Shown: one piece after another, positions 10,301-50,418 of the stretch
Layout: each line of letters starts with the position of its first letter
Numbering within the stretch: the stretch's first letter is position 1
Assembly: GCF_000003605.2 (NCBI RefSeq)
Contig: NW_003128865.1
Location: 92,090 to 142,507 of the forward strand
Origin: Saccoglossus kowalevskii
Lineage: Eukaryota; Hemichordata; Enteropneusta; Harrimaniidae
Length of the DNA: 50,418 nt
Direction of reading: 5' to 3'
Made by a program: the position numbers and the translations under genes
The notes under the pieces: generated by a model
Seen by the model: only the letters and a program-made list of their open reading frames with translations
Databases searched by the model: none
Told to the model about the DNA's origin: nothing

Positions 10301-13300
10301 GAAAAATTCATATAGAAAACAGCGTGGAGACCACCGCATATTGTTAGACTATGAACAATATTCAAATGTTTGATTCTGAAAAATTGCTTGAACTTTAATA
10401 CTATAAACTGCTTTAATTTGAAAAAAAAAAAAACTAATTTTTTTGTGAATTTTATGACCTTGCAAATGACATTAAATCAAGAACATTCCTAGCAGTGAAA
10501 ATTAATTTGTTTACAGATGAATGGTTTGTGAAGACTCTAGATGTAAGCTAGTATTATACCATGCTATTTTGTCTAACCATACTTATTCCTATTCTCACTT
10601 TTATTGAAGAACAGACACCCAGGTTTCAGGACTCTCTACTGAAATGTTCCCTGTAGAGCTAGTTACCCACCTGTCTATAACTTTTATGCATTTTTTATTT
10701 CTATAACAACTTTCAGTTTAAAGGAAAAAGAGAGAGAGGCTAAAGCTTTAGATGAAGAAAAGAAATTGTATGTTGTACATGCACAAGAACTTCAGTCATC
10801 ATTACATGTAAGTTTATCTGGCGTGTTAGCGCCCTCTGTGGACAAAATGGAAAATAATGAGGGCGCTGTCAAACAATTAAAGTCTGTTTTTATTTCATTC
10901 ATTGTTTTCTAACAAAAGGTTCAACACATCTATGAATATTTGTTATTATTAAATATGCCGAATAAAACCTGATCAATTTTAGGCAGAGGGTAAAATAAAA
11001 CAACACAGGATGAAAACTTGTATTGTTATTTTACAGGATTTAACAATACAGAAAGAAATGACAGATAATGAACTAAGAGAAGAAATCATAGCAAGACGAG
11101 AAGCAGAGAGGAGATTGAAAGATGCTGAAGCTGCATTAGCAAGATTAGAAATCGCTTTAGGACAGACAAGGCGTGATAGAACAAACAGTGTGGAAGTAGA
11201 AATTAGTCACAATGTAGCTACACTTAAAAGTAAGTTTACAATGTTGAGTTTCTTTTAAAGCTGGAGCTCCAGCTGGATACATGAATTCAACTGGGACAAA
11301 GTTTAATCCTATTTTGTACCTACATGATAATTGTTTGTTGTCTGCTGTTCCTGTGCATACTGACGATAAAACAATACCATAGTGCAAGTTATGATTTTGT
11401 CTGAATGAACTACTGTCAACTGCTTTAATTACGCAAAATCTGTGAAAATCGCTAAGTTTACTAGCAGTGAAATTCCTCTGGGCTTCTACGACATAGTGTC
11501 AGTGACTTTTGGAAAAAAATTTCTTCACAAATTAACAAATTATATGAACAATCCTGAATCAAAAAATTTATATCAGCGATAGAAAATTAAATGATGTAAA
11601 GTATGTATTATACCGGTACATTTGTTTCATGGGTCCCATATCCAATGATTGAATAAAAATGCAAGATATAGTTTAATGATTTGAAATCAAGACAAAGAAT
11701 TTATTTATTTTTTAGATAACACTCAACATATGCAAAGACATTTACACTGGTAGTGTACAGACCCGCCAGAAAGTATTTACGCACCACACTACATGCAGTT
11801 ACTACCTATGATATGATACAATAAAATAAACTCAATAACAGTTTGAATAAATATATTTATATAAAAACCGGTCACTGGTAGCATAGTGGTTGTCGCATCA
11901 GACTCATGATCAGTAGACCCAGGTTCAAATCCTACCTTAGGCTGAACATCACATACAAAAAAAAAAGTCAGGAGAGACAACAGTGACACTGAATGTCCGG
12001 AACTGTCGCCTGGCACAAAAAATATTTTAAAAAAAATATATATTTATATATCTAATAGAATATGCGTTTTTATCCACAATACAAACAACAAAATTGTCAT
12101 TGTCATGCAAGATTGAATAAAAACGGCAGTCTGAATGAAACAGTGAAAAAACGTTCAAATTCTCTATGGAGAATACCATGTAAACGCAAGCTCATGAATA
12201 TAGAACGCAACGATTTTCAATAATGAGTGTGTCCACCTTGTTGCTGGACAACTTCCTTAAGCCATTTTGGCATGGTATCGACGAGTTTCCAACACATCTT
12301 CACCTGGAACTGTCCCCAAGCTTCCATTATACTCGCGTATAAATCCTCGATGTTAGCGACTGGTCGGGAATGCACCTCTAAATCGATCACTTCCCAGAGG
12401 TTCTCAATAGGGTTCAAATCTGGAGACTGTGCAGGCCAATTCAAAGTGGTAAAGTTGTCAAAAAGATATCCGTACTTTTGTGGATTATTTAAAAAATCCC
12501 TCACTGCCAATGCTGTGTGAACGGGGGCATTATCCCGTTGGAAATGAAAATTGGGTCCAACGAGTCTTAGTGCCGACGGTATCATTTCGTTTTGCAGAAT
12601 ATCCAAATATTTCCATCGGTTCATGGTCGTCGGTACACTGACTAGCGACCCTAAGCTGGTAGCCGAAAAACATCTTCACACCATGACGCTACCACCACCA
12701 AATTTTATTGTAGGTTTAATGCATTTCAGCTCGTACTCTTCACCTGGTCTCCGACGTACAAATAATCTTCCACGGCTACGAAACACCGTAAACTTTGATT
12801 CGTCCGACCAGATATCTTGAGCCCACTGCGCCGGAGTCCAGTTGATGTGTTGTCTGGCAAATTGCAACTGCCTTGCGATGTGGCAAGGTTATATAGTCTT
12901 GATTTTTAGCTCCGCTGTTGACTTTGTCAAGCTTATCATATGAGTGATTGTCCGTCGTCGTCCGTCGTCGTCCGTGTCAATGTTTTACTTTTTCGACTTC
13001 TTCTTGAAAACTACAAGCCTGAATGCTTTGATACTTGGTGTATATGTACCTTGGGTAGACCTCTCTTAGGTTTGTTCATTTCATGTTGATATCTTCAATT
13101 CTCTAATTTTGGTGAATATTTTTATCATTTTTGGTAAAAAGTGATATTTTCGACTTCTTGTTAAAAATCACAAGTCCAATTGCTTTGATACTACATATAT
13201 AGGTACTACATGCGGACCTCTCTCAGATTTGTTCATTTTGTGATGATATCTTCAATTCTCTAATTTTGGTGAATATTTTTGTAATTTTTGGTAAAAAGTG

Positions 13301-16300
13301 ATATTTTCGACTTCTTGTTAAAAACCACAAGTCCAATTGCTTTGATACTACATATATAGGTACTACATGTGGATCTCTCTCAGATTTGTTCATTTTGTGA
13401 TGATANNNNNNNNNNNNNNNNNNNNNNNNNNNNNNNNNNNNNNNNNNNNNNNNNNTCACAAGTCCAATTGCTTTGATACTACATATATAGGTACTACATG
13501 CGGACCTCTCTCAGATTTGTTCATTTTGTGATGATATCTTCAATTCTCTAATTTTGGTGAATATTTTTGTAATTTTTGGTAAAAAGTGATATTTTCGACT
13601 TCTTGTTAAAAACCACAAGTCCAATTGCTTTGATACTACATATATAGGTACTACATGTGGATCTCTCTCAGATTTGTTCATTTTGTGATGATATCTTCAA
13701 TTCTCTAATTTTGGTGAATATTTTTGTAATTTTTGGTAAAAAGTGATATTTTCGACTTCTTGTTAAAAAACAAAAGTTCAATTGCTTTAATATTACATAT
13801 ATAGATACTACATGTAGACCTTTCTCAGATTTGTTCATTTCGTGATGATATCTTCAATTCTCTAATTTTGGTGAATATTTTAGTCATTTTTGGTAGAAAG
13901 TGATATTTTCGACTTCTTGTTAAAAACTGTAAGTCCGATTGCTTTGATACTATACATATTGTTCATTTTCTGATGATGTCTTCAGTTCTTTAATTGAAAT
14001 GTGCATTTCTAACAGCGGAGCTATCTCAGCCGATAGGCTGCTTGTTTAGTGCTCAAACTCAATCTTTTCACAGTGAGTTGATTAAAATTGGCACGCTAAT
14101 CACGGGCGGTGTGAAACCGATTCGCTAAACTAGACCTGATGAGTTACCTGGTCTTCGCGTTGCGTTGTACGCCTTGGTCGACCTGATCGACGACGATTGC
14201 CCATACTACCTCGCAGAAGAAGTTTTCGCAGGTTGAAACGTATGGAGCCTTCAGAAATTCCCAGTTTTCTTGCTATTTCCCTATTAGAAACTCCTTCTGT
14301 ATACAGTGCTTCAATGTTCCCTTTAGTAAATTCTGACAATTTCCTAACTTTCGGCATGGCTCAATGTTTGTTAATAAAAATTACGTATCTGACACTATGA
14401 CCTCGATAGGAATATTCATGAACTACAACTGACAGGTATTCCCGCCCAGAAGTGTCTGTTGAAATAATTTCAGCTTCCCAATTGGTTAAAATTTGCATGA
14501 GAAAGGACACGACTATCGCACATGTTTTATGGCGCGAAGTTTTAATAAGATGCAAATGTATGCAAATGAGCGCGCTCCCATAGAGTTAACCATGGGGATT
14601 TTCCCTCACTGAAAAAACGTCTACATATAAAAAAACTAAACACAAATCAACCATTTTATTTTGACTAAAATGCACTAGTTCTTCTTAAATTTAGTATATT
14701 TTAAAGTCAACACATCATGTTACCCGGAATTGTTATTTTTAGTTACGAAAACGATCAAATGACAGGTGCGTAAATACTTTCTGGCGGGTCTGTATATTGT
14801 TATAGCTTTATTAATAATTCAGACAACTTGTGTAGACACTCTGGATGGATTCACCATTCACTGCATTGATTCATGCAAGTAACATAGGAATATAACAACT
14901 TGTGTAGACACTCTGGATGGATTCACCATTCACTGCATTGATTCATGTACCTCATGGATGTCTCAGTCTACATGTCACAAATATCTGAATGTGCTGCTTG
15001 TCATTTTTATTTTTTTTCACTTTTCTCACTTAGGATTTTTTGAAGACATTGCAGAAGAAGCTAAGATTGACATAGACAAACCATTAATTATGAAAAATGC
15101 CTTGCATGCCAGGAAGTCTTTTATCAGGAAAACAAGAAGTTTTAAACATCGGAGAGCAAGAGCTAAATCAGCTGGTTAGTGAAATGAGTTTTTGCTGGGC
15201 TGCACTGTCTTGGTTTTGCTTCTTAGAACCACAAAACCTTACACTACAACATTTTGTTGTAGATAGTTTACTTGCATTCAATTTGAAAGTGCTGACATAC
15301 TTAATGTTTAAAGTGCCTGAGAAATGCCCCCCCCCCCCCAATAGGGTGAGAATAACTATGTTGAAAAAGGTGAACACAAGTAAAATGTTGAGTTTTCCTA
15401 TTGATTAATGACTCCTGTTTAGGTTTTTTTGTTGACATTTATGAGTCTTTGGTTAATGTTTATCTAGGACGTTTATTTGGCCGTAATCCTCAGTAGTAGT
15501 GACAAGTATACTGTATTTTAACAATTGACACATGCTGTGTAGCGCGATGTAGATGTGAAATCTACAAAAAAATAATCCACCAGGAACACACAGGGTGTTG
15601 TGTAGTAACTATTTTTGACCAGATAACTGTGTTTGTTTATTTTCAAACTATCATATGGTAATGTGATGTGTGTCCTCGAACTTTTGATATGTGTAGAAAA
15701 TAAAGGTCACACCGATGACCCTGATGCATGCTCAGATCATTAGATTTGTGTCTTACATCATCAGATAGTTTGGATTGCGACCGTTTATGACTATATATGT
15801 CTGCTGTTGACATGTTCATACATGTAGTATGACTTCCATTGAAAATTTAATCCTTTGGGTGTTCTTACAAGTTTGTTACTTTGGACAGTCAGAACTCAGA
15901 TTTATACTCCTTTTTCAGCCTTGACAAAAAATTCAATGACTACAAGGCCAACAGAACATGGTTATATTTCAATGCATTATAACCAAAATGTACGACATGC
16001 ATTTCTCAGCCACTTTAATAAAGCACTTATGTAACAATGAGAACAATGGTGTCATTAAATAGTACCTAAGTTGCAGGGTATGGTAGATGAATCAACCTCA
16101 TAAGCATATTGTACCTTATCAGTATGCAGTAGCAAACCACTCATTGATGTATTTGCACAATTTGCTTAGATGATATCATAATGCAATCCTAATTGTCTCA
16201 CTCTGTCTCATCTCTTGGTTTCTTTCTGCTTTTCATACATGTGTTGTGACTGTGTTCATTTTAGTAATTATGTAATACAGCACAGTAGTAAGCTTTTAAA

Positions 16301-29142: not shown

Positions 29143-32100
29143 ATGGTAGCAATGAAGAGCGAACAGTGTTTCTCCGTTCTTGTACTCGTGTTGGTATGTT
29201 TTTCAGGGAATGGCAAGGGAAGTGCCGGACTCGATACGTCACTGACATCCTGGGAAACATTAGATGAACTATTTGAGCTTTGCGATCTTCTTGGATGGGT
29301 ACCCCAAGGTAAATCATTATACAGTGTATGTATCTATACCTATGTGTTATGACGTCCACTCTGAATGTACTTGGCTGTTACGTGTTATTCAGTACAGGTA
29401 TATAATGTCGCTAACAATCTGTGTTTGCTTTTTAGTTCATGCAACCCCACAGTTTACCTTACGTGTTTTATAAATTACTATCTCACATACCCACTGTTTA
29501 GCGTTCAAATTTCGTGAAAACAAACAAACAATGTATTTTATACGCGTCGTGGATTGGAACTTATTTCTAATAAAACACTGTGCAACGATCATGAACTGCA
29601 CTTCATTGCTTGACCACACTGACCCAGAACCCGATGCGTCATTGACATTTATTATATGGATTCGTTTTCAGTAGAATACATACAAGTGATTATTGGTGTT
29701 TGTCTGCTGACAACAGTCATCGACATTAGTAGACGCCATTAGTATGAGCCGTGCCCCGTGCCTGCCTACTAATGGATTTTCCTTGTTGTTATTACTCTGT
29801 ATACATTTCCAGACTAGATGAGCTCACATTACATATCTCGAATAGTTTTAGTCTGACGATTTTTTTTCTCAGCTTGAGGGTAGGTTATTGAAAATTACGA
29901 AGTATGTACAAGCAAACTGTCATCGATTGATTGAATTGATAAATTTTTAAAACTTAAATTCAGAAAATTTAGATTATTATTATATTCCAAACAATTATCA
30001 TCAATTGAACTATCAGGGGGAAAATCTTCTTCTCTCGGGGTCTCTACACTGTCAGGGGAAAACTCGTCTCGTCTCTCTATCTCGTCCCCTTGAGGTACGG
30101 GATCGGGAAAATCACTTTAACTTTACAGTCAAATAAGACACACACAACGAAATACGTTTCAACTCTCGTCTTAGTCGATCTTTTGGAGCACTCTATAAGA
30201 CACAGCGCCCTGGGGAAAAGTCCCCAAGACTCTCACAAGGCTGAACCAAGACTAGCCCAAGACTGGACTGCCTCAAGGCTCGCTCCTGGACTCTCTCGGA
30301 CTGCGTCTGTCGTGGAGTATTCGCCAAGACCAACTCAAACTCTCTTTATTCATTTTCAAAACTCTAACCAATTACAAAACAGTAAAAGACTCTAGGGCGT
30401 AACCTTCAATCATAAAGCCAATCACACTAAGTACTGAATACGTCATATCTTTTGATTAATCGTTCACTACATTAATAACTATGATTATAAACTGTCAGAA
30501 TAATTAGTAATTAGTTCCAAATCACTTAGCCAAGTTCCGTCCAAAACTTCAAATAGGCCTACACGATGACAGACATAACACAGCAATTCGCTAATAATCA
30601 GTTAATTAAGTCGGTTAACAGATACGCAAAAACAAATTCATGACAGAACAATCATCATCCATTCTTCCATGTTTATTACCCAACCTTTCCTATTAAAAAC
30701 TTTCCAATCCGGCAGCAGTTTTCTTCTTAGGAGTAGACCAACAAAAACTCTTACTGGTAGCCACAAAGCTGTTCGCATCCTGCTATGTCTCCCACGCATC
30801 CTTGTCAAGTCTTGTACATTGACAAATATTTCACACCGTGGAAAAAATAACAGCAAATTCATCATGGGAAAAAAAACGTCAATTGAAGGAAAACAATATT
30901 TTGAACAGATCCCGCATCGCTCCCTGGCAGAATGTGCAATGACCCCCCCCCCCCCAATGATTCAACGTTCTCTGAGGCATGTCAAGCAGTAGTTGCCAGT
31001 ATTTAGTAGATGGTGTTTTTATAACTCACGCCTAAATCTTGATTCCATAGAAAAATAAATCAAGATGTGCTTCAATATCCGACACAGCAGTGTGTAATGT
31101 GATTGGAACAGATGTTGGACAATGTTTATTCAATGACTTCACCTTCTTATGAAAACTGTCATGTACTATGCCAAAAACACTCCAAAATGGGTTTCACGTT
31201 TAACAGTAAATTGTTACAATATTAATTACTCTCGAAAACATATTTTTTGGAAATCCAACTCATGTGTCTACTTTGGGTTCAAAAGTCATTACCTATGAGA
31301 CACGTTTTCATTTACACAGGGCATCCTCGACCAATTTACCGACAAGATCTACCTGCAGACTACATAGCATACTGGGAGCTCGAGGTCAATGACACCGATT
31401 ACGTCATCATATCGTCAAGTGCAAAAACCGGTGACTATCGATTGAACCAACAAGGCCCATTACCAAGTCCTACTACACTACTGGACAAGTATGCGTCATC
31501 AATTCAATGTCAATGTCATCGTTATTATATGCTATCTCCAGATGGACAGATGTATTGTCAGGATGAGGAAGACAGAATAGTTGCCATGACAACTGAAAAC
31601 TTGATTGACATTGGAAAAAACGATGAAGTATGTTCCATATTGTTTTGTAATATGACTATAAGACTTTAGCTCTGAAGTTTATACTCATTTGTGAAATGAA
31701 CTATGCGACGGTGCAAGTGTATTTTTGACGTGCAGTTTCCAGTTTGTTTTCAATGCTCCACAAGTTGAGGAGTTCTTGAGTTCTTGGTAATGTGTGATGT
31801 GGAATCATTGCGTGTGTCTGTTTGTTTAATGTGGACTGTAGACGTGGTTCGTGCAAGCGACACTTCGACTCTTGCTATTCCCGCTGGACTACATACATTT
31901 GATTAACTACAAGTGACTATAGTGATAAATAATGTATGACGTAAACCTTATTTAATTGACAAATGGACATATATGGGTAATTATTATGTGGTCTGAGACT
32001 TGAATAATATATGATGTGTCCAATTTCACAATCTTGGATTTTGGATGCGTTCCTGTATATCTTTACATTCATCCATCTGATATTCATAATTACGTTCTCG

Positions 32101-35100
32101 TAATTTCAAGATTTTGGCGTGTATTATAATACTAAAAGTTGTATAGATTGTTCGAATATCTTTTATTATCCATTTTGTGGCATATTGTTGCATTGCAGTA
32201 TACAAAGATGGACACTCTAGCAAAAATCTTGTTCGTACAACAAGACGAAATACGAGCGGAATGGGACCAGCGCCGAATTAAAGTTGAGCAATCAGCTGTG
32301 TGGTCTACTGTGACCAAGTTCAATGAAGCATTGTGGGATAGTTATGATGATGATAATGACGTCATCGATTTATTCCATAGTGACAGTTACTCAGAGCAAG
32401 CCATATCACCAGGTACGTGAAAACACTGTCGGATACTATTCAAAGATCGCTTTTTACCTTGCCTGTACCATCAAAGATGGAAGGGAAAGGTATATTAAGG
32501 GAAACATTTTTTGTCCGGCGTTGTCGTGGTCGTCGTCGTTGTTGTCGTCGTTAATAATTGATATCGTGTGCACAATAACTTTACTAATTCTATTCCGAAC
32601 TTTATCAAACCTGGTCACCTTATTCATCAGTATAAAGTCTTTCCTGAGTTTGAACAACAAATGTCATGTATGAAAATATCATGCAAAAATTGAGAAAATC
32701 TGATAAAATATTTTGACTGTTTCTACTTGACTGATCACTAGTGATACGCATCAAAGATCATTGATCTCAGTAGAAATATGCATTGTCGTCTGTGTTCAAT
32801 GAAGCAAATAATTTATCTTGTAATAATATCCTTGGTAATGTATCTCCCAAATCCCATGGGAATACTATACTGGGTTTCAAAACCAATTAATCCATGGAGA
32901 GATTTTTTTGCACAGTCTGATACACATTTGCAAACCTGCCAATAAAATCTTTACAGAAAACAAGCTGTCAGAAAATCAATAGAAGCACTCCTATGAACTG
33001 GGTGCCAAACTTTGATCAAGATCTGAAGCTAATAAAAAATCTGTTTAGTTCAAAGTTATCAAATCAAAAACAATACATAAAAAGCAAAACGTTGCATCCA
33101 CATTTTGAAAAAAAAAAATTTACTAAAATATGTGTATTCTGTATTTGACAAACAGTTTATTCGACAAATGAAAATTCACAGGAATTTGTTTCAGCTTTTA
33201 GAACAGAATGATATAGCTTTTATAATACTAATTTTAAAACGCACTTTAAAAACAAAGATTGCAGTGTTTGAAGATGTAGATTTTCAGGAGGCAACAGTAC
33301 CGTTGACTTCTCTCTCCACTGGACACTGAACTAACTATTTAGGTTGATTTGCATACAAAGCAAATTTTGCAACATGATAGCTATTCATAGAGAGTGTTTT
33401 TTTACTTTTCATATAATACAGTAGTCACACAATGGATATAATAAGGCAGTTCATATTTGTCTCAGTGAATCATTAATTTTTGACAGACACCTGTACAAAA
33501 TACTTAGACAAAAGCCAGCTAAGATTTTCTGTTATCTTGCATGTTTTATGAATCTATTCACGTCTAAATGCAGCACTTTTTTTCTACGATGAGGCATTTA
33601 TTTTTATACTAAAGTATCTGAATAAACTTGAATAAAGCTGGAAATTACATCCCTTAAAATAATTAAACAAATTAGGTACCAATGTTTTTGTAAGATATTT
33701 ACATCTACCAAGGACAATCGGTAGATTCCCCACTGTTGGTCCAACCCCAAAATTTTGTATTCAAAATTAATTTTGACAATGCATATTTATATTGAAACAA
33801 ACTGTGATAAAGGGAATAATATTATATAACAAAGGGCAAGGTCACCAGAGTTCAACTATGTTTAATTATATAATCATCGTATATAATCACGTTATAAATT
33901 ATTTTTAAACATTAATATTAAATTGGACTTGTAGAAATATGTTTTTTTAAGTATTAACATGCCTTCCTCGACGTAGCTTACCCGATGTGCTACGGGCACA
34001 GCAAACCTATTCATTTTCTTGAAAATATTTATAAATTTCAATGGCAGCTGGATCCAACCAGCGAGCGAAGTCCACAGGGACGTCATTTGAAAATGTTTCC
34101 AAGTTATTTCATCGGCTAAGAAGCTCTAAGTTTAAATTGCAAACTTTATAAATATTGGAATGGGGTTGTTGTGTCGACAGTAGATGTAACTGTTTCTTTT
34201 TTTATTGCCTGATTACAGGTGAGATGATACAAATTCCCCTTGGAGATGTAACACATACACCAAAAGTCAGGTTTCTACCATTTGAAATGAACATGACTGA
34301 AGAGGATAGGTCTGAGTGGCAACAAAGGTTGTGTCGAGTGCTTCTTGACATATGTAAGGTGAACAGTTATACAAGTATCGATGAGACCAAGGTGTCTGTC
34401 AACCACAAACTAGGCAGGCGTTCACTGGAATTGAAATTGCACGATGATGAGGAATTCGTAAAGGAAATACTGGATGGAAGAGAAATCGGTTTTCATATTG
34501 AAATCCATCTTAATAATGGAGAAGTCATTTTGAAGCGATTCGGAATAGATTTGAGTTCCCACATGAACCGATATAGGCGGCACACCAGCACCCGTCCATG
34601 GAATAGTTGGTCGTATTCTGAAATTAAAAATGAGGAATTGTTTCCTGACTACTGGCAACATAGCGTAGATGGGTGTATGAGTGGATGCGGCCCTGTATCA
34701 TGGACAATGGTGTTTGGATATTATGATCGTCTGGCCCATTCAAGTACTCCTCACGGACACTCTACAGCACTTTGGCGATGTGGGGAGGACGGTACCACAG
34801 GAAATGATGACTGCGTGGCGCCCGCTACGTTGAACGATACCACTAAAGAGTACGTGGAAGTAGTGAGGGAGCAAGTGGACACATTCTGTCTCTTAGGCCA
34901 AGGTGCTACTCCGCAGTGGGATATGGATGGAATAGCCAAATTTTACCAAAGTAGGCAAGGCGGCTCTTCGCATATAACGACTTGGAACACTGGTGGACCA
35001 CATGGTTTTCTGGGTTGGTACAGTGATCAAGTGGCAAATGGAATCGTTAATGCAATAAAAGATGCCCAACTGCCTGTAGTTGTTGGATATCGTGTCGGCG

Positions 35101-35306
35101 GGAAATTAGATCGCCAACATTATGCCGTAGCAACCAAACTACGACGTCGCTCAAGACGTTTCCGTCACTGTTATTTGTTTTTCTGCAATGACTGGAAAAC
35201 TGAATGGGACAATGATATGTACATCCATTTTGGGGGTCAGAATGGTTCTGGTAATGGTTGGCGTTCTTGCGAAGGATTCTTTGGCGGTGTAGCATACCCT
35301 TCTTAG
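29143..35306 (+). CDS. Secreted C39-like papain-fold cysteine peptidase, copy A (591 aa)
   Basis: Exons 29143-29308, 31320-31627, 32199-32412, 34219-35306 join with phases 1/0/1 to 591 aa. Start: the first of two nearby ATGs (29143, 29152); both precede a hydrophobic signal-peptide core SVLVLVLVCFSG. Residues 56-158 (exon 2) resemble the beta-rich prodomain/Spi-like segment found before C10-type peptidases (YWELEVNDTDYVIISSSAKT). Exon 3 is helical and charged. The C-terminal domain carries YWQ (Q376), SGCGPVSW (C386), RQHYAV (H530) and CNDW (D554), which fit the oxyanion Gln and Cys-His-Asp triad of papain-fold C39-like enzymes. Several further Cys (LWRCGED, DDCVAP, FCLLG, RSCEG) suggest disulfides and extracellular location. 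Family placement is by motif only; substrate unknown. Copy B follows in the same direction. Confidence 0.85.
29898..30116 (-). other. Unrecognised 73-codon open stretch, acidic with internal repeats
   Basis: No ATG. The minus-strand frame reads DFPDPVPQGDEIERRDEFSP and further on EEDFPPDSSIDD, a repeated D/E-F-(S/P)-P-D theme. It lies in intron 1 of peptidase A. It could be a piece of an old mobile element or an unknown exon. A separate unrecognised basic minus-strand ORF is at 30638-30865, and a C/T-rich block of caagact-like repeats lies at 30190-30320. Confidence 0.2.
32521..32552. repeat. GTC/GTT trinucleotide microsatellite
   Basis: Interrupted run of gtc and gtt triplets in intron 3 of peptidase A. 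Confidence 0.8.
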
Positions 35307-37666
35307 ATACATTAATTCAAATTTATCCTTTGAAGATATCACTGTATCTTAACTGCGTGTGTATATCTCGTTTATGAAAATGACATTGTTCCCAATATTC
35401 AAGAATATTGCATGCATCACACTACTCTTATTTAGATTAAAGTCTATACTAGTATACTCATCAGACCTCGTTTTATTCGTCATTTTTTAATAACTTACAA
35501 CAATGTATACTTCCATGCATACATAGATGAGAAAGTCGTTTCCTTGTGCGTTTGTATTGTCTAGCTGTTCATCTCACACGGCTGCCTCTTTGGGATCAGT
35601 TGACAATTAGATGATGATGTCATTAGCGAACTTTGCGGATTTATGATGGCGCCGTGTGTAATCATTGGATATTTGAGTTTCTGAGCTGTTGCGTCATACA
35701 GCAGTTTGATCTGATATTGATGGCCGCTTATATTTGGCCTTGTTTGATCAAATATGTTATTTTGCTAAAATTTCCGCATTTGTTTTGCCCTTTTACAGTT
35801 TCCGCGGTGTCACATTGAAAGCATACTACAATATAGTTGCGTATCGCAACTTGTATCCTGGACATTCTAGAACCGATCACGTTCAAATTTCACACATACA
35901 CCTTAGGATAGATATGTACGTCTATGCATTTCACGATCCGATTCGGGATGGACAAATGACAGATGGATTTTGTCCAAACTTGGTATATACATTGGACATT
36001 ATGGGATATTATGATGTANNNNNNNNNNNNNNNNNNNNNNNNNNNNNNNNNNNNNNNNNNNNNNNNNNTTAGTTCTAATTACTGATTTAAAATGGCTGAC
36101 TTGATTAAGTTTTGTTAAATATCATGCCACGCCATAAATTAAGTTTCGATTTATTTTATAATATACCTAATGACAAATGGTTGATTTAATTATATTACCC
36201 ATTTACACCTTGTAACGTTGTTGCAAATAAGTAACAGTCAATTCTAATTTTGAGTAGCCAAGTTGCCAAATGATATTTGAGTTATCAAAAATAAATCATT
36301 CCGGAAATGTTTGTTTATGGATTCACATTTCTGCCACAATTTATTGAATTCGTTCTTTGGTCAAGGGCAGCCTGTTCTAAAAAAATCCTGAGAACTTGAA
36401 CATTTATTTATTATTCTTTTTAGTCGAGTTTCTGTTGTGTAAGCGATATAGTCACGTGGTATTGTGACACTAGACATATTTTGACTGAAATGGGAAACCA
36501 TATGAGTTTATTTATTGAATCTCCACCCCCACATGTGACATACCATACTTTAACGGTATTTTTAACATAGACAGTTCAGAATAAGCTTTGAGAAAAAATA
36601 CATATCGTACAAATACACCAGGAAAAGAATAGAAATAATGCCGGTTATTTATACAGTATTACAACTGGGGATAACCTAATATATAAATGTACATGCCCGA
36701 ATACTCAATGCACATAAATGTGAATCATGTATTTCCTCTAGAATTCTGGTTACGTTACTGACGTTGGACATAGCATAGTGTTTTTGTCTGTCTACCGGGA
36801 ACAAGTAAATTTAAAACGTAGAGCAACTATACGGGACTATCGTTCAATTTAATCAGAAATGTTCAATGTTTTTGTGTCAATACATAGTTACAAGAGACTT
36901 CAGAAAAAAAAACATTTGCTTGATAGCATACAAATATAAAGTCGAAGAATGCTTTTCACTAAAATGGTCGCTTATATTGTATGACTAAACTAAATTTATT
37001 TTCTCAATGAGTTCGTGTACGAAATGCACATCGTGCCTTGGCGGACATTTTGTTCACAATTTTCAGAATATATTGTCGAGGCTGAACAATTCATAGATAA
37101 ATGAAACAAACACGATTCAGATAGAAAATATCAATAATGTATCTAAAGTGACGGTAGATAACATCTTTCAACTGAATCCTGATTCAATTTGGTGAAGGGT
37201 TTACACATTTCAAATCTGTTGGGGAGGGGAGGGGCTAAATAACTTATTTGCATATAAGTTAAATAAATAACTTATTTGCATATATTGTATTCAAACATGC
37301 CTGACCAATATTGTTGTATTCACATTTCCCCCAATTTAATTTATAATATGCAGTCGTGTTGGACATTTGTAATTGTACTATCTTCACCCACGTAAATTTG
37401 TTTTCCAAAAATCCTACAGCTTATCCCTAAGTTGTCAAACGGAAAATTCATAACATGTAGACTGCAGTAATTTTGGATTCTAAAGAAAATCTGTTGTTTT
37501 AAAATTAACATAACCAAACGGTTATATAACAAACTACAACCCAGTACAGAAATATTGTATCCAATGAGGACACAGTAGTTATTGACGACAGGTGCATTTG
37601 CTTTTAAAACAAGCCCAATGGAACGGCGGACTTAACTTTGGAATTGACACTGTAGCTTCGGTCGCC
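35307..37666. other. Spacer between the two peptidase genes
   Basis: Contains an ATGGCCGA-type repeat fragment (about 35840-36100) that holds a 50-N assembly gap (36019-36068), plus a short direct repeat ttatttgcatat at 37244-37283. No other gene seen; no third peptidase copy. Confidence 0.6.
36019..36068. other. Assembly gap (50 N)
   Basis: Fifty N within a dispersed repeat. Nominal length, as for the gap at 13406. Confidence 0.99.
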
Positions 37667-39998
37667 ATGGAGTATGGATGGGTTTTCGTCGTGCTTCACA
37701 GCCTGGCTTTTCTTCAAGAAGTATTTCTTGTGAATATCCAGTTTGAGACGACCCCATTAACTTGGGGAGCATTGGATACGTGGACGGAACTACAAGAACA
37801 CTCTGCATACAAAATAACAGGTAAACGAATCTCGCTACTAGTAATAGTATTAGTCAGAGCCCTGTCTGATATCCACAGTGTTGCAACGAACTAGGGAACA
37901 TACAAGGAATGCCCCATAACCGTAATAAATTAGTGTCTCGATCGGGGTCAGACCCACGGCACTGAGAACTTTTGATGACTCGTGTTCGTGAACTTGACGA
38001 TTATTTGAAAATAATAGCGGACTTGAATGTACCAAATTATACATTCATTTGAGAGAACGTCCCTGCATATTACGATGTAATGTTCATTTCAGGGAATCCT
38101 CGACCAATTTACCGCCAAGATCTACCTGCAGACTACATAGCATACTGGGAGCTCGAGGTCAATGACACCGATTACGTAATCCTATCATCAAGTGCTAAGA
38201 CTGGTGACTATAGATTTAACCAACAAGGCCCATTACCAAGTCCTACTACACTGCTGGACAAGTATGCGTCATTAATTAAATGTCAATGTCATCGTTATTA
38301 TATGCTATCTCCAGATGGACAAATGTATTGTCAGGATGAGGAAGACAGAATAGTTGCCATGACAACCGAACGTTTACTGGAATCTGATTGGAAGGTATGT
38401 ATCATCTACATGATTGCAATGTATAAACTTGAACGCCTTGTTCTGTATTAATTCGTACCATGTTGTCGGTACCAAGTTGCGTAACTGCCCTAGAATCTGA
38501 ATAATATGCGCCAATACTATTATTTCCCAGGATGCATCAATGAAAATGTCTAAAATGGAGACTATTGTACGCGAGCAGCAAACCGGGGTGCGAAGGATGT
38601 GGAAACAGCGTCGAGGTAAAGTCATACAATCGGATGTGTGGTCAACTATAACTGTTCTGGGGAGAGGACAAACACTATCCCGGGATGAGCGATACTCGCA
38701 GCAAGCTGTGTCACCAGGTTAGTAAATGTAAATACTCAATCTTGTATTTAATAACTAAAAAGTTCATTAAATTTGAATGATATATTTAAGGCTGGTAGGT
38801 TGTTCATCTTTGAAACGTTGTAAGCTTCTTCCCCACGACATAAGAATTGAACTTTTTTTATTACAATGATGACAGACTACTCGTATTTTTTTGTTTTTAT
38901 ACAATTATAGGCGAGAAATTAAAAATTCCACTCAACAACGCGACAGATACAGTCAAAGTTACGTTCCTACCGTTTAATGCAAATATGTCAGACATGGAAA
39001 AATCTGCATGGCAACGAAAACTATGTAGTGCCCTTGGAGACATTTGCACTGGTGAATATTTTACATATGTAAACGAAGGAAACTTCACAATTTTCAACGA
39101 ATATGGTGGGCGGGTTTTAATTCTACAGCTGCATGAAGATGGACAACATTTGTGGAAGCTACTCGAAGGAACGGACATTGGTTTCCAGGTGGAAATTCAC
39201 CATAATAATGGCGAAACTGTTTTAAAAAGATTTGGTATTGACTTAGGTAGCGAAAACCATCGCACACGGATCGTTAAAAGGTTCACCAAACGTCTTCCTT
39301 GGCACACAACTATGTCCCAAATAACGCACGAAGAACTGTTCCCGAATTACTGGCAGCATCGCATGGATGGGTGCAGAAGTGGCAGCGGCTCTGTAGCATG
39401 GGCCATGATTTTCGGATATTATGATCGCTTAGCGCATCTAAACGAGTCGTATGGATTTTCCCAGGCTTTATGGCGATGTGGGGAGGACGCCACCGACGGC
39501 AGTGATGACTGCGTAGCGCCACCTACTCAAAATGCAACTGTACAACTGTATGTAGAATCGATCCGACGTAAATTGGGAACGTTCTGTCTACTTGGAAGCA
39601 TTACACCACACTGGAAAATGGACCACGTAAAGAGGTTCTATCGTCGGCGACAAGGCAGCACTGCGTTCATATCGACATACAACTCCGGTAATTTGCAGGC
39701 GTCACTTGGATGGTACGGTGACAACGTTTCCAATAACATTATCAAAATACTGGGAACACAGTTGCCTGCTATTGTGGGATATCGAGTAGGTGCTCTTAGA
39801 CATTACGCCGTGACAACCAAACTACGGCGACGACATCGTCGGTACCGTCACTGTTTTTTGATTTGTACTGATTGGAAGAAAGAATTGGACAATGATATTT
39901 ACATCCATTTTGGCGACGAAAATGGTGATGGTAATGGATGGCGTTCGTGTGAAGGTTATTTTGCTGCCGTAGCATACCCACATAGTATACAGACGTAA
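37667..39998 (+). CDS. C39-like papain-fold protein, copy B, Cys-to-Ser at the nucleophile site (576 aa)
   Basis: Exons 37667-37820, 38093-38394, 38531-38717, 38911-39998 have the same order and phases (1/0/1) as copy A. ATG 37667 is chosen because it sits in good context (tcgccATGg) just before a signal-like core WVFVVLHSLAFL; the frame is open further upstream to 37592. Motifs: YWQ (Q363), SGSGSVAW (S373, S375), RHYAV (H512), CTDW (D535). Where copy A has Cys-Gly-Pro, B has Ser-Gly-Ser (agc for tgc, tct for cct), while Gln, His and Asp are kept. The reading frame is intact over 576 residues and structural Cys are conserved, so this looks like an expressed pseudoenzyme or altered enzyme rather than a dead gene. 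Exon 4 is 1,088 nt in both copies although only about half its residues match. Confidence 0.83.
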
Positions 39999-44541: not shown

Positions 44542-47500
44542 ATGGCGCTCCCCGTGAGATGTGTGGAAGATCTGGAGAAACTTCAAGAACAACGATTTGT
44601 GGCGGACGGAGTCCCAACAGCGAGTTCGATTGAACAGGTGAGTATATATTCGACGAGTTTCAATTACTAACCTAGGGTCATCAAATATATAACGGTATTA
44701 CTTAGTAATAACCGTAAAGGGCGGTGGTCGCCGCGCTGCGTCCTGTTCGAGTATGGGACTCCTAACGACGTACAAAACGCGCTTCCATTTTGCTACTTAT
44801 GATGACATATATGATGAAGATATTTTTTAAATGAAAGTCGAACACGCGCTGCGCGACGACCACAGACTTTTAATGCACGATAATGAACTCCCTTGTAATA
44901 CAACTAGTATATTTATTTTATTTATTTATTTATTTATTTATTTATTAACACTACTCACTCCCCGGAGAGAGTGGCAATGATTACAGATAATAGTAAAAGA
45001 ATACAGTATTAATACACTAATAAGGAAGTAATAAAAAACTAATAAACTAATCTACAAAAACAGAATATTAATGGACAAAAATAATAAAACAACTCCTTCT
45101 AGAAGAAAGATGTATATTAATCCAAAATTTGTTGTCCAATTTCAAAGCACAATACAATCATTATTTAACAGTCTAGACGTACTAATACTGTAGAATACTT
45201 TATTTTCGCTGAAGGGATGATTTTGTGAAAATATAATCCAACGCATACACTTTTTTTCCTATATTTCACATTAAACTCATCAGAAATCAGTGAAAATAAA
45301 TTCCATACAAAACGCCCAAAAAGCCTTTTCAGCGAAAATTAATTCCAGCGAAAATAAAGTATTCCACAGTAATATGTAATAACAGGCAATCCCTGGCATG
45401 CGAGCGCAGCTGAGCGGTTTATATATTTTAAAGGGCGCCAGTCATCGTGCCTTGTTCGATATAAGACTCATAGCGACGTGTACAACGCATGTAAAATACC
45501 GTGTTTATTTACATGAAATTCGAACACGTGCTGCGTGCTGACCACCGCGCTTTAATATACCCCTATGAGTTACTATAAATAGAACTAAGATAACCATAGG
45601 ACGTCAAAGTACGTGAACCACAAGAAGCCCCAGAACTGTATGCCAAGTACTGTAAAGCGGTTAATTATTCACTGGGTTTTAATTTTGCTTATTTCGCTGA
45701 CTGGAAAATTCGCTAAATTAAAACCCAGTGAATATGTCAAATTTAGCAAAGAAGACATTATCTAAATGATAAAACTGTGAATTTAAAACCCACTGAATAT
45801 GCCTGAAATGGTAAATCAGTGAAATTTAAACCCAGTGAAAATTTGTCATTTTACAGTATGTATGGTAATGGTGGTGGTGATGCGCTAGTCATTATATAAA
45901 CCCCGAAAAATCGATTTTTGGTTTCATGAGGTTACATAAGAAAAATACCTTTTTTTATATCCTCATCATATATGTATAACACGGTCTGGTGGTCATTTTG
46001 ACATAAACAAAACCAAATACAATTTTACGGTTCTTGATATTTAGAAACAGGTTATGCTAATTAGAGTTCAAATTTGAGATAAAAAAGAATAACCTGATAG
46101 AAAACAGACTTTATAGTTTTCATATGCTTTCGAAAACTCCTGTGTTCAACCAAGACTAAGATAGAACATCACATTGTCAAAATTGACACAAGATGGTCAT
46201 ATACAATTTTAATACCATACAACGATATAAAGTTACTCTTTATGGAGTGTTTAGTTGTGCTTGCATCTGATTAAATTTCTGTAATACCGGTAGATTATTA
46301 TATTTCAGTCAAAGATTATCTAACTAAAATATGATGTAACATATCTTTTGTATTTTTAATAGGAGAGAGTGGAAGCATCAGTTGGTGAACTCTTTGAAAG
46401 ATTCTCAATTGATTCAGATGCTAATCCAAAGTACGTGATATGTTTATAGACAGTTACTTTGTTTTGATTGGGTAAATTTTTTGAGGGTTGCATGTCTCAT
46501 GACTGAATCCATGTGTAGTAAGTATGGTTATATCCCATGTGTCATAAGTATGGATATATCCCATGTGTCGTAAGTATGGCTGTATCCCATGTGTCATAAG
46601 TATGGTTATATCCCATGTGTCATAAGTATGGCTGTATCCCATGTGTCATAAGTATGGCTGTATCCCATGTGTCATAAGTATGGATATATCCCATGTGTCA
46701 TAAGTATGGATATATCCCATGTGTCGTAAGTATGGCTGTATCCCATGTGTCATAAGTATGGATGTATCCCATGTGTCGTAAGTATGGCTGTATCCCATGT
46801 GTCGTAAGTATGGTTATATCCCATGTGACATAAGTATGGTTATATCCCATGTGTCGTAAGTATGGCTGTATCCCATGTGTCATAAGTATGGATGTATCCC
46901 ATGTGTCGTAAGTATGGATGTATCCCATGTGTCGTAAGTATGGTTATATCCCATGTGTCATAAGTATGGATGTATCCCATGTGTAGTATGACTGTAATAC
47001 ACATATTATAATGAGGCTATTGCATGACAATTATTTTATAATTAATTTACTCTACAGCAATGTTCTCCTTTTCCAGTTCATTTTTGTAAGAATAATATAT
47101 ATTTATGAAGAAGTATTTTCATTTCACATTGCTTTCACAGCCCACTACTATATAAAGACAGACATATACATTACTTATTGAAAGGACTAAAGAATCTGAG
47201 CGAGTCATATGAATGTTTAGACGCCAGTAGACCCTGGCTTTGTTATTGGATTCTACACAGTTTATATCTGCTTGGAGAACAGATATCTGAAGAACAATCC
47301 TCCAGGTAAGACCTGATACTATATGAACTTTGACCCTGTTGCATGTATATGTCATCATAGTGTGACTGACCAACAATGAAACAAGGCAAAAATTGATTGA
47401 AATTGTTCAGTTGGTGTTCTTGTATTTAGAAAAATGAACTGAAAAAATGTTTAATTGCCTTGCTTGATTAGATTGGGATCTTGATTTTTTACCATATGCT

Positions 47501-50418
47501 CACTAAAAAAAAATTGGCTTAACTTTCGCCCAGTAATTCAAAGTATAATAAATATCTCATAATGTTTTATTTTCTTACAACAGACATTAATATGCTGGCC
47601 ATTATATAATGTGCACAATCACGATGAATGATTTTTAGTTGACAAGATATTTCTGTCTTCTGTTTACCTTTGTATTCATTTAGGTGTTCATCATCACAAT
47701 CAGTAAAAAGTTGACAATTTTGGTCATGTTAAATGTCATACTAATGTACATACATATGGACATGTTCAAACCAAATGGCATGTACACATCTGTATCACAA
47801 ACTAAACTGCATGAAATTTAGACATGTGTTGTGAGGAGCAATTTTGAAATAAGTAAATGTAAATGCCGGTTACAATGTCATTCAAAATGCCGTTTAAATC
47901 AAACACATGTGAATAGCGTCATAACTTATGCTGGCATCCGCTGTTTAGGATGTGTTACTCGTGTAGGTAATTTTAATCCTATTAATAATGATTTTTACAG
48001 GGTTGTACAATTTCTTAAAAGATGCCAAGATCCAGATGGTGGATTTGCAGGTAACTCATCTGCTCATGAATCCTCCTTTCGTTTTTGGCTTTTGTGTGTC
48101 AAGCACAAATGAGGCTTATGTCATTAAGTTGTCTGTCTGTATGGATGTGTGCATGGATGGATGTGCGTGTCAAATTTTGATAAATCACAGATATGTGATG
48201 AACTCCAGACCTAATTTGATTTTCCTGCTTTGCGTATTAATTAGCTAATTTGCATAATAATTGACTACTATAATTAACTGTTTACTCAAATGGTCAAATG
48301 CATACTATTTGTGTAGTTGAATGTCTAACACTAGTTTGGTATTAATTTGAATATGTTAATGATCTAATTCGCATAATAATTAACTATTTTCAGCCTGTTT
48401 TCAGCATGATATTTTAACAGTTGCATAAATGTTTTATATACCTAGTAACAAGAATACTGTTTGTGTAGTTGCATGACTGATGATTGTTTGGCAACACATT
48501 GTACTGTTGTACATATGAATCTCTGTTATCATTTGTGCCTATTACTGTAAAATATTTTCACTTTATGCTTTGAAAATACCCTTTTTCCTCTATTTTACAT
48601 TTCAATTCATCAACGATCACTGAAAATAAACTTTGAATTGCCAAAATGTCTTTTCATCGAAAATTAATTACAGCTAAAATAATGTATTTTTACAGTAATT
48701 GACTTTTCATTTTGTTTATCTGTATTATAATAGTAATTTGTTTTAATGCATGCTGTGTGTTTAGTTGAATATCTGACACTATGTGAATATTAATTATTCA
48801 GCTTGTTTTATTTTGTACATGTGAATCTGTTTGGGTTAAATTATAAAACAGTGTGAGCAAAGCTAAGGCTAAGGTTTTATGTTAGTTGTTAGTTCAAAGA
48901 ACATTGAATTCACTTTACACAGGAGTATTTCTTGTAAAAAAAGGAAGAAGCATACTCATAAATAAAAGTACTCAGAATTTATTCATTTTGCAATAAATTG
49001 TACTTCTTGATTTAAAAAAAGTTTGAGGTCACCCTCCATCTTCTTTGATTACATTTTAGTGAATGATGTTCATTTTGTCAATGTTAAAATGATTTTACCT
49101 ATGGTTGACATAATATGCAAATATGCAAAGTCATCATTATTATCAATATTAAATTAATACTAACTGTGTATTGTTTTGGGATGGATATTATAAATGTATT
49201 TGTAATTGAATGTATATATATTTACTTGTTGGTATGGCAACATATCTTTGATACATTTTCAAAATGTTTTAGTAGATATTTTATGATAATTATAATCTAT
49301 TTTTCTACTTCAACATAGGGGGTCCAGGTCAATGTCCTCATCTAGCTCCAACATACGCTGCCATCAGTGCATTGTGTACACTGGGGTCTCAGGAAGCTTA
49401 TGATATTATTGACAGGTAAGTCACGATAGTTTTATTATTTTTCTTACTAAGGTTTGATTAGGCTGACTTTTTTTTCGATATGTGATTATGGTGCCCCTGA
49501 AAAACATGATTCATTATTCTGATAAAATATTCTTAATTATGACTGATCATTAAAATTATTATCCAAATTATGAGTTTGTTATAATTTCATAACAAATAAA
49601 TCTCAGATGTATGCTAATATCCTAGAAATATACAGGCATTTACATGTTTTTTTATGTGTTGAATCAAACTGATAAATATGTATCAGCCAATCAGTTGTAA
49701 ATACTATTTGTTTCCAATGAGTGTAGAATTGAGGATACAAAAAAGTGTGACTTATGGAGTGTTATTTTTATTTGCCACTCACTGTCAAGTTCTAGTTGTG
49801 TGAAACTGAGGCTGCTGTTAAAAACAAGTTACCAGTAGATGTCTTCAGTACTAACTCCTTAGCTCAGTCTGATGTCCTCAGTACTGACTCCTTAGCTTTG
49901 TCTGATGTCCTCAGTACTAACTCCTTAGCTCAGTCTGATGTCCTCAGTACTGACTCCTTAGCTCAGTCTGATGTCCTCAGTACTGACTCCTTAGCTTTGT
50001 CTGATGTCCTCAGTAATAACTCCTTAGCTCAGTCTGATGCCCTCAGTACTAACTCCTTAGCTCTACTGATGTCCTCAGTACTAACTCCTTAGCTCTGTCT
50101 GATGCCCTCAGTACTAACTTCTTAGCTCTGTCTGATGTCCTCAGTACTAACTCCTTAGCTCAGTCTGATGTCCTCAGTACTGACTCCTTAGCTTTGTCTG
50201 ATGTCCTCAGTAATAACTCCTTAGCTCAGTCTGATGCCCTCAGTACTAACTCCTTAGCTCTGTCTGATGTCCTCAGTACTAACTCCTTAGCTCTGTCTGA
50301 TGCCCTCAGTACTAACTCCTTAGCTCAGTCTGATGCCCTCAGTACTAACTCCTTAGCTCTGTCTGATGTTCTCAGTACTAACTCCATAGCTCTGTCTGAT
50401 GTCCTCAGTACTAACTTC
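44542..50418 (+). CDS. FNTB: Protein farnesyltransferase beta subunit, first five exons (3' end beyond window)
   Basis: Exons 44542-44637, 46363-46430, 47141-47305, 48001-48050, 49319-49415 join in phase (0, 2, 2, 1, 2) to about 158 residues. FNTB pairs with FNTA to attach farnesyl groups to CaaX-box proteins in the cytosol. Diagnostic segments: YECLDASRPWLCYWILHSL, FLKRCQDPDGGFAGGPGQ and HLAPTYAAISALCTLGSQEA, the first prenyltransferase alpha-alpha repeats. An in-frame TGA nine bases upstream of ATG (tga ttc aaa ATG) fixes the start. The zinc ligands and catalytic half of the protein must lie beyond position 50418. Introns contain palindromic MITEs and two minisatellites. Nothing in the visible exons is damaged. 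Confidence 0.93.
44712..44873. mobile_element. TTTAAAG CpG-type palindromic MITE in FNTB intron 1
   Basis: ccgtaaagggcggtggtcgc ... gcgctgcgcgacgaccacag then actttta. Same family as 43649 and 45427. It starts only about 75 bp after FNTB exon 1. Confidence 0.75.
44909..44947. repeat. TTTA tetranucleotide microsatellite
   Basis: About nine ATTT units followed by an A-rich segment, in FNTB intron 1. Confidence 0.9.
45186..45373. mobile_element. MITE of the TACTGTA family (copy 2)
   Basis: tactgtagaatactttattt-tcgctg and its inverted end cagcgaaaataaagtattcc-acagta. ~188 bp, FNTB intron 1. Confidence 0.8.
45427..45555. mobile_element. TTTAAAG CpG-type palindromic MITE
   Basis: ttttaaagggcgccagtcat ... 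gaacacgtgctgcgtgctga then ccaccgcgctttaa. Confidence 0.7.
45648..45858. mobile_element. MITE of the TACTGTA family (copy 3)
   Basis: tactgtaaagcggttaatta...cactgggttttaatttt, with the inverse at the other end (aaatttaaacccagtgaaaa...tttacagta). Inner 'aaacccagtgaatat' repeats. ~210 bp. Confidence 0.8.
46505..46990. repeat. 26-bp minisatellite, about 18 copies, in FNTB intron 2
   Basis: Unit close to atcccatgtgtcataagtat-ggatat, with variants tcg/tca and ggctgt/ggttat/ggatgt. Minus-strand ORFs with HTYDTWD repeats are produced by the array (26 is not a multiple of 3, so all frames are visited). It begins about 75 bp after exon 46363-46430. Confidence 0.95.
48542..48699. mobile_element. MITE of the TACTGTA family (copy 4)
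   Basis: ttactgtaaaatattttcac ... ttaattacagctaaaataat then gtatttttacagtaa. FNTB intron 4. Confidence 0.75.
48973..49007. repeat. Fragment of the TTAA-flanked MITE family
   Basis: gaatttattcattttgcaat then aaattgtact matches the near-end segment of the copies at 26019 and 27572. Confidence 0.6.
49837..50418. repeat. 33-bp minisatellite running off the window end (FNTB intron 5)
   Basis: Unit close to gatgtcctcagtactaactc-cttagctcagtct; about 17 copies seen with t/c and actaac/actgac variants. Because 33 is a multiple of 3, one frame stays open with an 11-residue repeat (DVLSTDSLAQS) until a 2-bp-shorter unit near 50062. It is intronic by position. Confidence 0.95.

Follow-up and report, generated by a model that had tools for sequence, protein, structure and literature searches.

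A tandem pair of predicted papain-fold genes in the hemichordate Saccoglossus kowalevskii, one with serine in place of the nucleophile cysteine

We identified two tandem genes, here called A and B, in a 50,418-nucleotide stretch of the Saccoglossus kowalevskii genome (the window; contig NW_003128865.1, positions 92,090 to 142,507), both of which encode proteins with a predicted papain-fold catalytic domain. Gene A carries Cys at the position of the catalytic nucleophile and gene B carries Ser. With somewhat better than even confidence, we consider that B is a retained pseudo-peptidase that regulates its active paralogue. This reading draws on the sequence, the gene structure, the Ser in one of four copies, branch-averaged purifying selection on B and gene conversion of exon 2, together with a modelled fold.

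The two genes lie on the + strand (A at 29143-35306, B at 37667-39998) and have four exons each in a common layout, namely a signal peptide exon, a pro-domain exon, a linker exon and a long last exon that holds a beta region and the catalytic domain. The exon model search, which covered a few bases around guessed boundaries, gave one open GT-AG model for each gene. Gene B is open over 576 codons with no stop and with all splice sites present, in agreement with the initial annotation of this DNA, and its residues S373, Q363, H512 and D535 are numbered as in that annotation. Residue numbers for A are C383, Q373, H527 and D551 from the ATG at 29152, while C386, Q376, H530 and D554, as first given, hold from the in-frame ATG at 29143.

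Two protein searches of the genome (572 Mb, 4830 contigs) found at least four family members, A, B, C and D. Genes C and D are on another contig, 21 kb from each other, and have the same four-exon structure; each has two open models, two codons apart at the end of exon 2, of which the first was used. In the paralogue alignment the nucleophile is Cys in A, C and D, and Ser only in B. The motif SGCGPVSW of A, with its Cys codon TGC at 34686-34688, is SGSGSVAW in B, with a Ser codon AGC at 39384-39386, just as the initial annotation had read them. Its further statement that the Cys-to-Ser and Pro-to-Ser changes are one base each is borne out by the codons (TGC and AGC, and TCT for the second Ser). 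The Gln of the oxyanion hole and both His residues are kept in B. An alignment of 57 rows, duplicates included, has Cys in 54, Ser in two (both gene B) and a gap in one. Given the Cys in A, C and D as well as in the bacterial relatives, the Ser is a derived state that arose on the B branch. In the catalytic-domain tree the four animal copies form one group (100/100), within which C and D pair at 99/96 and A and B at 94/88, just under the program's mark. The Pro-to-Ser change is minor: among the 12 bacterial genes found by profile search without the Cys motif, two have Pro at this column, nine have Ala and one has Gly, and since the column varies (mostly Ala) in these genes, the change in B carries little meaning. 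The features of the two genes are as follows.

29143..29308, + strand: gene A exon 1, signal peptide by eye, ATG at 29143 or 29152 (tblastn homology to exon 1 of C and D, sequence, open GT-AG model)
31307..31597, + strand: gene-conversion tract, common to B exon 2, 94% DNA identity (blastn 93.8% over 291 columns; contrast in synonymous distance)
31320..31627, + strand: gene A exon 2, read as pro-domain, resembles bacterial N-terminal domain (gene model; hhalign against bacterial pro-regions)
32199..32412, + strand: gene A exon 3, linker (gene model, exon comparison)
34219..35306, + strand: gene A exon 4, beta region and predicted papain-fold catalytic domain (gene model, predicted structure, fold comparison)
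34686..34688, + strand: A nucleophile Cys codon TGC, C383 (C386 from the upstream ATG) (codon read, structure model)
35118..35120, + strand: A catalytic His codon, H527/H530 (alignment, codon read)
35226..35228, + strand: A third-position His codon, H563/H566, Asn in bacterial relatives (alignment, codon read)
37667..37820, + strand: gene B exon 1, signal peptide by eye (gene model)
38083..38370, + strand: gene-conversion tract, common to A exon 2 (blastn comparison)
38093..38394, + strand: gene B exon 2, read as pro-domain (gene model)
38531..38717, + strand: gene B exon 3, linker (gene model)
38911..39998, + strand: gene B exon 4, beta region and predicted papain-fold domain with Ser at the nucleophile (gene model, predicted structure, fold comparison)
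39384..39386, + strand: B Ser codon AGC at the nucleophile position, S373 (codon read)
39390..39392, + strand: B second Ser codon TCT, Pro in A (codon read)
39801..39803, + strand: B catalytic His codon, H512 (codon read)
39906..39908, + strand: B third-position His codon, H547 (alignment, codon read)

A degenerate DNA pattern for the nucleophile motif led to 36 bacterial loci, and 13 of these matched a profile of the four animal proteins at E < 1e-20, the best down to 2e-32. These 13 best-scoring loci belong to Chloroflexota, Planctomycetota, Actinomycetota, Pseudomonadota and unplaced bacteria. Six of the 36 were left off the reference list, 24 of the other 30 are in the structure alignments and 13 of the 36 are in a further alignment (A4). 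The motif loci were picked for Cys and are therefore uninformative on the frequency of Ser. Profile searches of 294, 400 and 294 genomes had matches in 2, 8 and 1 genomes, respectively; the 400-genome search added 12 new genes, which come from one phylum (seven genomes) and all have Cys, and the other two gave re-finds only. Bacterial relatives such as L048, L016 and L051 have the motif GCG-P/A-x-A-W and a His-Tyr motif in common with the animal copies, whereas their third catalytic position is Asn rather than the His of the animal genes; no Ser variant was seen in the bacterial rows. Longer bacterial members show the same pro-domain layout as the animal genes. Because their N-terminal region matches animal exon 2 over 83 columns (hhalign E 1.3e-4, with a modest probability of 54), we read exon 2, with a correspondingly modest degree of confidence, as a putative pro-domain. 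Four bacterial frames of 220 to 319 amino acids (L040, L047, L022 and L044) have no recognised pro-domain; a weak match to the exon 2 profile (E 0.03 to 0.26) comes from another frame at the locus, possibly part of a split pro-domain gene. No relatives were found in three scans of viral contigs, in phages with C as the query or in plasmids with one bacterial relative as the query, and a contig scan with a pattern from the animal alignment gave 129 pattern matches with no relative among them. A literature search found no paper on an animal member of the family.

Fold comparison placed the predicted catalytic domains of A and B nearest to C10 and then to other clan CA peptidases including C39. 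In the models, the core helix begins with the nucleophile, and the first His is found close to where a later strand starts. This is the arrangement of the papain-like fold of clan CA, and these two members of the triad proposed in the initial annotation stand. The best-ranked folds for both proteins are peptidases, with cathepsin chains present only as fold matches. At E < 0.001, Foldseek gave no match for model A and two for model B, both streptopain. The early likening to papain-fold or C39-like enzymes is supported by the fold comparison, and no match shown reaches a Pfam cut-off. For Peptidase_C39_2 (PF13529, gathering score 24), C scored 17.3 bits (E 0.0076), the best E of the four members was 0.0042 and a genome scan gave no match; for Peptidase_C10 (PF01640, gathering score 26), C scored 9.2 bits, the best E of the four was 0.17 and the bacterial relative L048 reached 13 bits (E 0.13) over positions 11-193 of the 194-position profile. 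Membership of C39_2 or C10 was rejected, as the scores fall below the curated cut-offs. The four exon 4 proteins matched three Pfam families (E up to 10, HMMER filters on), and papain family C1 is not among them. In addition, a profile of the bacterial and animal domains gave one chance match only against PDB sequences (E 0.58), and only one of 17 members matched one NCBIfam model, weakly (E 0.027). Curated models cover this family poorly, and no Pfam score shown reaches its cut-off. The Cys that defines a papain-like cysteine peptidase is present in A, C and D and missing from B. N-glycosylation sequons in the catalytic domain number three in B (N392, N422, N486) and two in A, and there are none in C and D. 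A lectin-like role for B, one of the roles first suggested, was rejected, since the galectin matches are at chance level (E 0.25 to 0.43) and rank below an mRNA-capping enzyme at E 0.13.

The third catalytic position is better assigned to a His than to the Asp originally chosen (D554 in A, D551 from the downstream ATG; D535 in B). The Asp column is Gly in both C and D. In model A the Asp falls in a turn, with strand 299-318 before it and strand 326-336 after it, and in model B it is near the start of the second strand, 317-332; we infer that it sits near the tip of the predicted hairpin, with much of the strand length between it and the first His. Both models end the second strand on a His (336 in A, 332 in B). 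At this column the structure alignment has Asn in 24 of 24 bacterial rows, and the 57-row alignment has Asn in all 44 bacterial rows with a letter (re-finds included) and His in all seven animal rows with a letter, from four genes. In view of the Gly in C and D, the predicted location and the His/Asn column, we reject the Asp as third residue. Because His replaces the bacterial Asn in the alignment, the site is likely to be Cys-His-His in A and Ser-His-His in B, an assignment made from the alignment and predicted secondary structure. The usual Asn, Gln, Asp or Glu at the third position is His in all four animal copies, and the triad described as intact in A is non-canonical even there. A His as third residue is listed for several papain-like families including amidase, LRAT and NLPC_P60 (PMC10318531).

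Selection was analysed with a codon model written for this analysis, in which gapped codon columns were dropped and 353 kept in exon 4. The ratio of nonsynonymous to synonymous rates (omega) in exon 4 was 0.157 for all branches together. When the B branch was left free, omega was 0.077 for B and 0.201 for the rest, and twice the log-likelihood difference (2dlnL) from omega = 1 was 55.4 (p about 1e-13). The same test for the A branch gave an omega of 0.144 and a 2dlnL of 10.7, and for the catalytic part alone the B branch had an omega of 0.065 and a 2dlnL of 43.6. Neither a broken frame nor neutral evolution, the marks of a pseudogene, was found in B, and the earlier proposal that B is selected rather than decaying agrees with the intact gene and the low omega, taken as a whole-branch average. 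Exon 2 has a different history, having been homogenised between A and B by recent gene conversion that is confined to this exon and has sharp edges. The synonymous distance (dS) between A and B is only 0.28 in exon 2, while exons 3 and 4 give values of 2.3 to 8.8, and the 300-base flanks of exon 2 are about half identical. Over the whole of exon 2 the A-B omega is 0.26 (p 0.0014), and 15 codons differ in the conversion tract, 10 of them synonymously. The low dS of exon 2 therefore indicates that the pro-domain was exchanged after the split of A and B, with both copies still coding.

It is likely that A and B are tandem paralogues and belong to a small family of animal papain-fold proteins that are secreted, of zymogen type and similar in layout to bacterial cysteine peptidases. 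With its Cys-His pair retained, as in C and D, gene A probably encodes an active cysteine peptidase or amidase, whose site is Cys-His-His as judged from the alignment. Gene B would have swapped Cys for Ser on its own branch while keeping the predicted fold, the oxyanion Gln, both His residues and the pro-domain. Its product would be secreted and folded with its cleft kept, and efficient cleavage with Ser is unlikely. The cleft of B may bind a substrate, an inhibitor or the shared pro-domain, and may in this way tune the active paralogue. In other papain-type zymogens the pro-domain folds back on the catalytic cleft. If it does so here, the inhibitor segment of A could also be carried by B, or B could compete for it. 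We favour a regulatory pseudo-peptidase because of the precedent of Plasmodium SERA5, which is compared with B below.

Several observations weigh against retention of B for such a role. The B omega is averaged over the whole branch, including the time before the Ser change, and the constraint on exon 2 since its conversion is joint for A and B. Apart from the A-B exon 2, pairwise synonymous distances among A, B and C/D reach at least about 1.8 and are partly saturated, which makes the omega values rough; a rate-per-branch codon model gave an omega of 1.85 for the short C branch, so that single-branch values in general are rough. The protein branch of B is longer (0.47 vs 0.19 for A), its catalytic domain has at least three small deletions, and B alters four of 26 otherwise invariant columns, while other rows alter two at most. 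The branch length, deletions and altered columns fit relaxed constraint as well as new function. They also suit an account in which the nucleophile of B was lost recently and the gene, whether expressed or silent, is heading for decay, particularly as the period since the Ser change cannot be singled out by the selection test. Nevertheless, B is open with every splice site in place, its omega is low, its converted exon 2 has been constrained jointly with that of A, and its unique residues in the catalytic part are in modest excess (28 of 229 columns vs 23 for A), and we regard decay as a rather unlikely explanation. An error of assembly or consensus at the Ser codon is very improbable: a run of N lies between the genes at 36019-36068, but B is a coherent paralogue that differs from A, C and D at many sites, and the nearby Pro codon differs too.

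Other accounts make B, or the whole family, something other than a pseudo-peptidase. B could be an active hydrolase or transferase on the papain fold, in which the Ser attacks, the first His acts as base and the second His orients it. The Ser, both His residues and the oxyanion Gln are in place, and the catalytic part is under strong purifying selection. Cys-His-His sites occur in papain-like families such as NLPC_P60 and LRAT, and a conserved Ser for Cys is known in menin and some other families (PMC10318531). Moreover, the activity left after Cys-to-Ser replacement in two engineered papain-like enzymes, bleomycin hydrolase and congopain, was not negligible (PMC10318531), which also counts against an inactive B, and silicateins are Ser enzymes on a papain fold (PMC4671257). 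However, the authors of PMC4671257 state that they know of no cysteine-peptidase scaffold with significant activity after Cys-to-Ser replacement, and the criterion of Gisdon et al. (cited in PMC10318531) is a negatively charged site, whereas the whole-domain net charge of B is +5. This charge is a crude proxy for the site and does not set B apart from C (A -5, C +3, D -2). On balance, we think an active B unlikely. The narrower proposal that B became a working Ser-His-His papain-fold hydrolase in two steps, Asn to His in the family and then Cys to Ser in one tandem copy, seems decidedly unlikely to us. Assemblin-type serine proteases of herpesviruses have a Ser-His-His composition on a different fold. 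Finally, the change from Asn to His may have made the whole animal family non-proteolytic, as amidases, transferases or binding proteins, with the Ser of B one step further. The His is present in all four animal copies where bacteria have Asn, and it is a third residue listed for amidase and LRAT families (PMC10318531). Against this, A, C and D retain the Cys, the first His and the Gln, peptidases head the ranking of folds, and the third position itself is assigned from alignment and predicted secondary structure, and we consider this account improbable.

Elsewhere in the window there are tandem repeat arrays at 1419-2331 (22/66 bp units), 12990-13959 (157 bp units), 46509-46984 (26 bp units) and 49838-50416 (33 bp units). 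The first 2.5 kb has a strong base skew, to which the array at 1419-2331 probably contributes. A transposase fragment (DDE_3, E 1.5e-11) lies at 12217-12624 on the - strand. Outside the window, the Pfam model of COX1 matched a 17 kb contig of the same genome, read as mitochondrial. By eye, this contig has ND4L placed between ND3 and ND4, ND6 on the opposite strand and COX1 inverted with respect to COX2, a gene order that suggests a hemichordate or a cephalochordate.

In comparison with known systems, the closest parallel to a regulatory pseudo-peptidase is the SERA family of Plasmodium, in which Cys- and Ser-type papain-like paralogues, such as cysteine-type SERA6 and serine-type SERA5, stand in one tandem cluster like A and B (PMC3058004, PMC4671257). 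SERA5 is proteolytically processed (PMC5500368). The Ser protein is described as having no protease activity, its Ser-to-Ala replacement gave no phenotype, and it was called indispensable (PMC4671257); a later paper from the same group terms it 'important but dispensable', with premature rupture and poor egress in its absence (PMC5500368). SERA differs from the present pair in belonging to family C1, in the putative Ser-His-Asn site of SERA5 (PMC4671257) and in having more serine-type members. No C1 profile match is shown by A, B, C or D, which sets them apart from both SERA and the silicateins. The four genes also differ from C10 (streptopain, interpain) and from C39/C39_2 in scoring below the curated cut-offs, in the His at the third position and in having introns. 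Silicateins are sponge relatives of cathepsin L, and their silica chemistry is not in evidence for B. TINAG and TINAL are cathepsin-B-like matrix proteins of another family. They resemble B as animal papain-like proteins that are listed as inactive (PMC10318531). Two further Cys copies (C and D) and a bacterial outgroup are available for comparison, and, given the family-wide His in place of the bacterial Asn, the tolerance of a papain-type site for successive changes of its third residue and its nucleophile can be tested directly. Overall, A and B would be a further tandem pair of Cys and Ser type on the papain fold, this one in an animal and belonging to neither the SERA nor the silicatein lineage.
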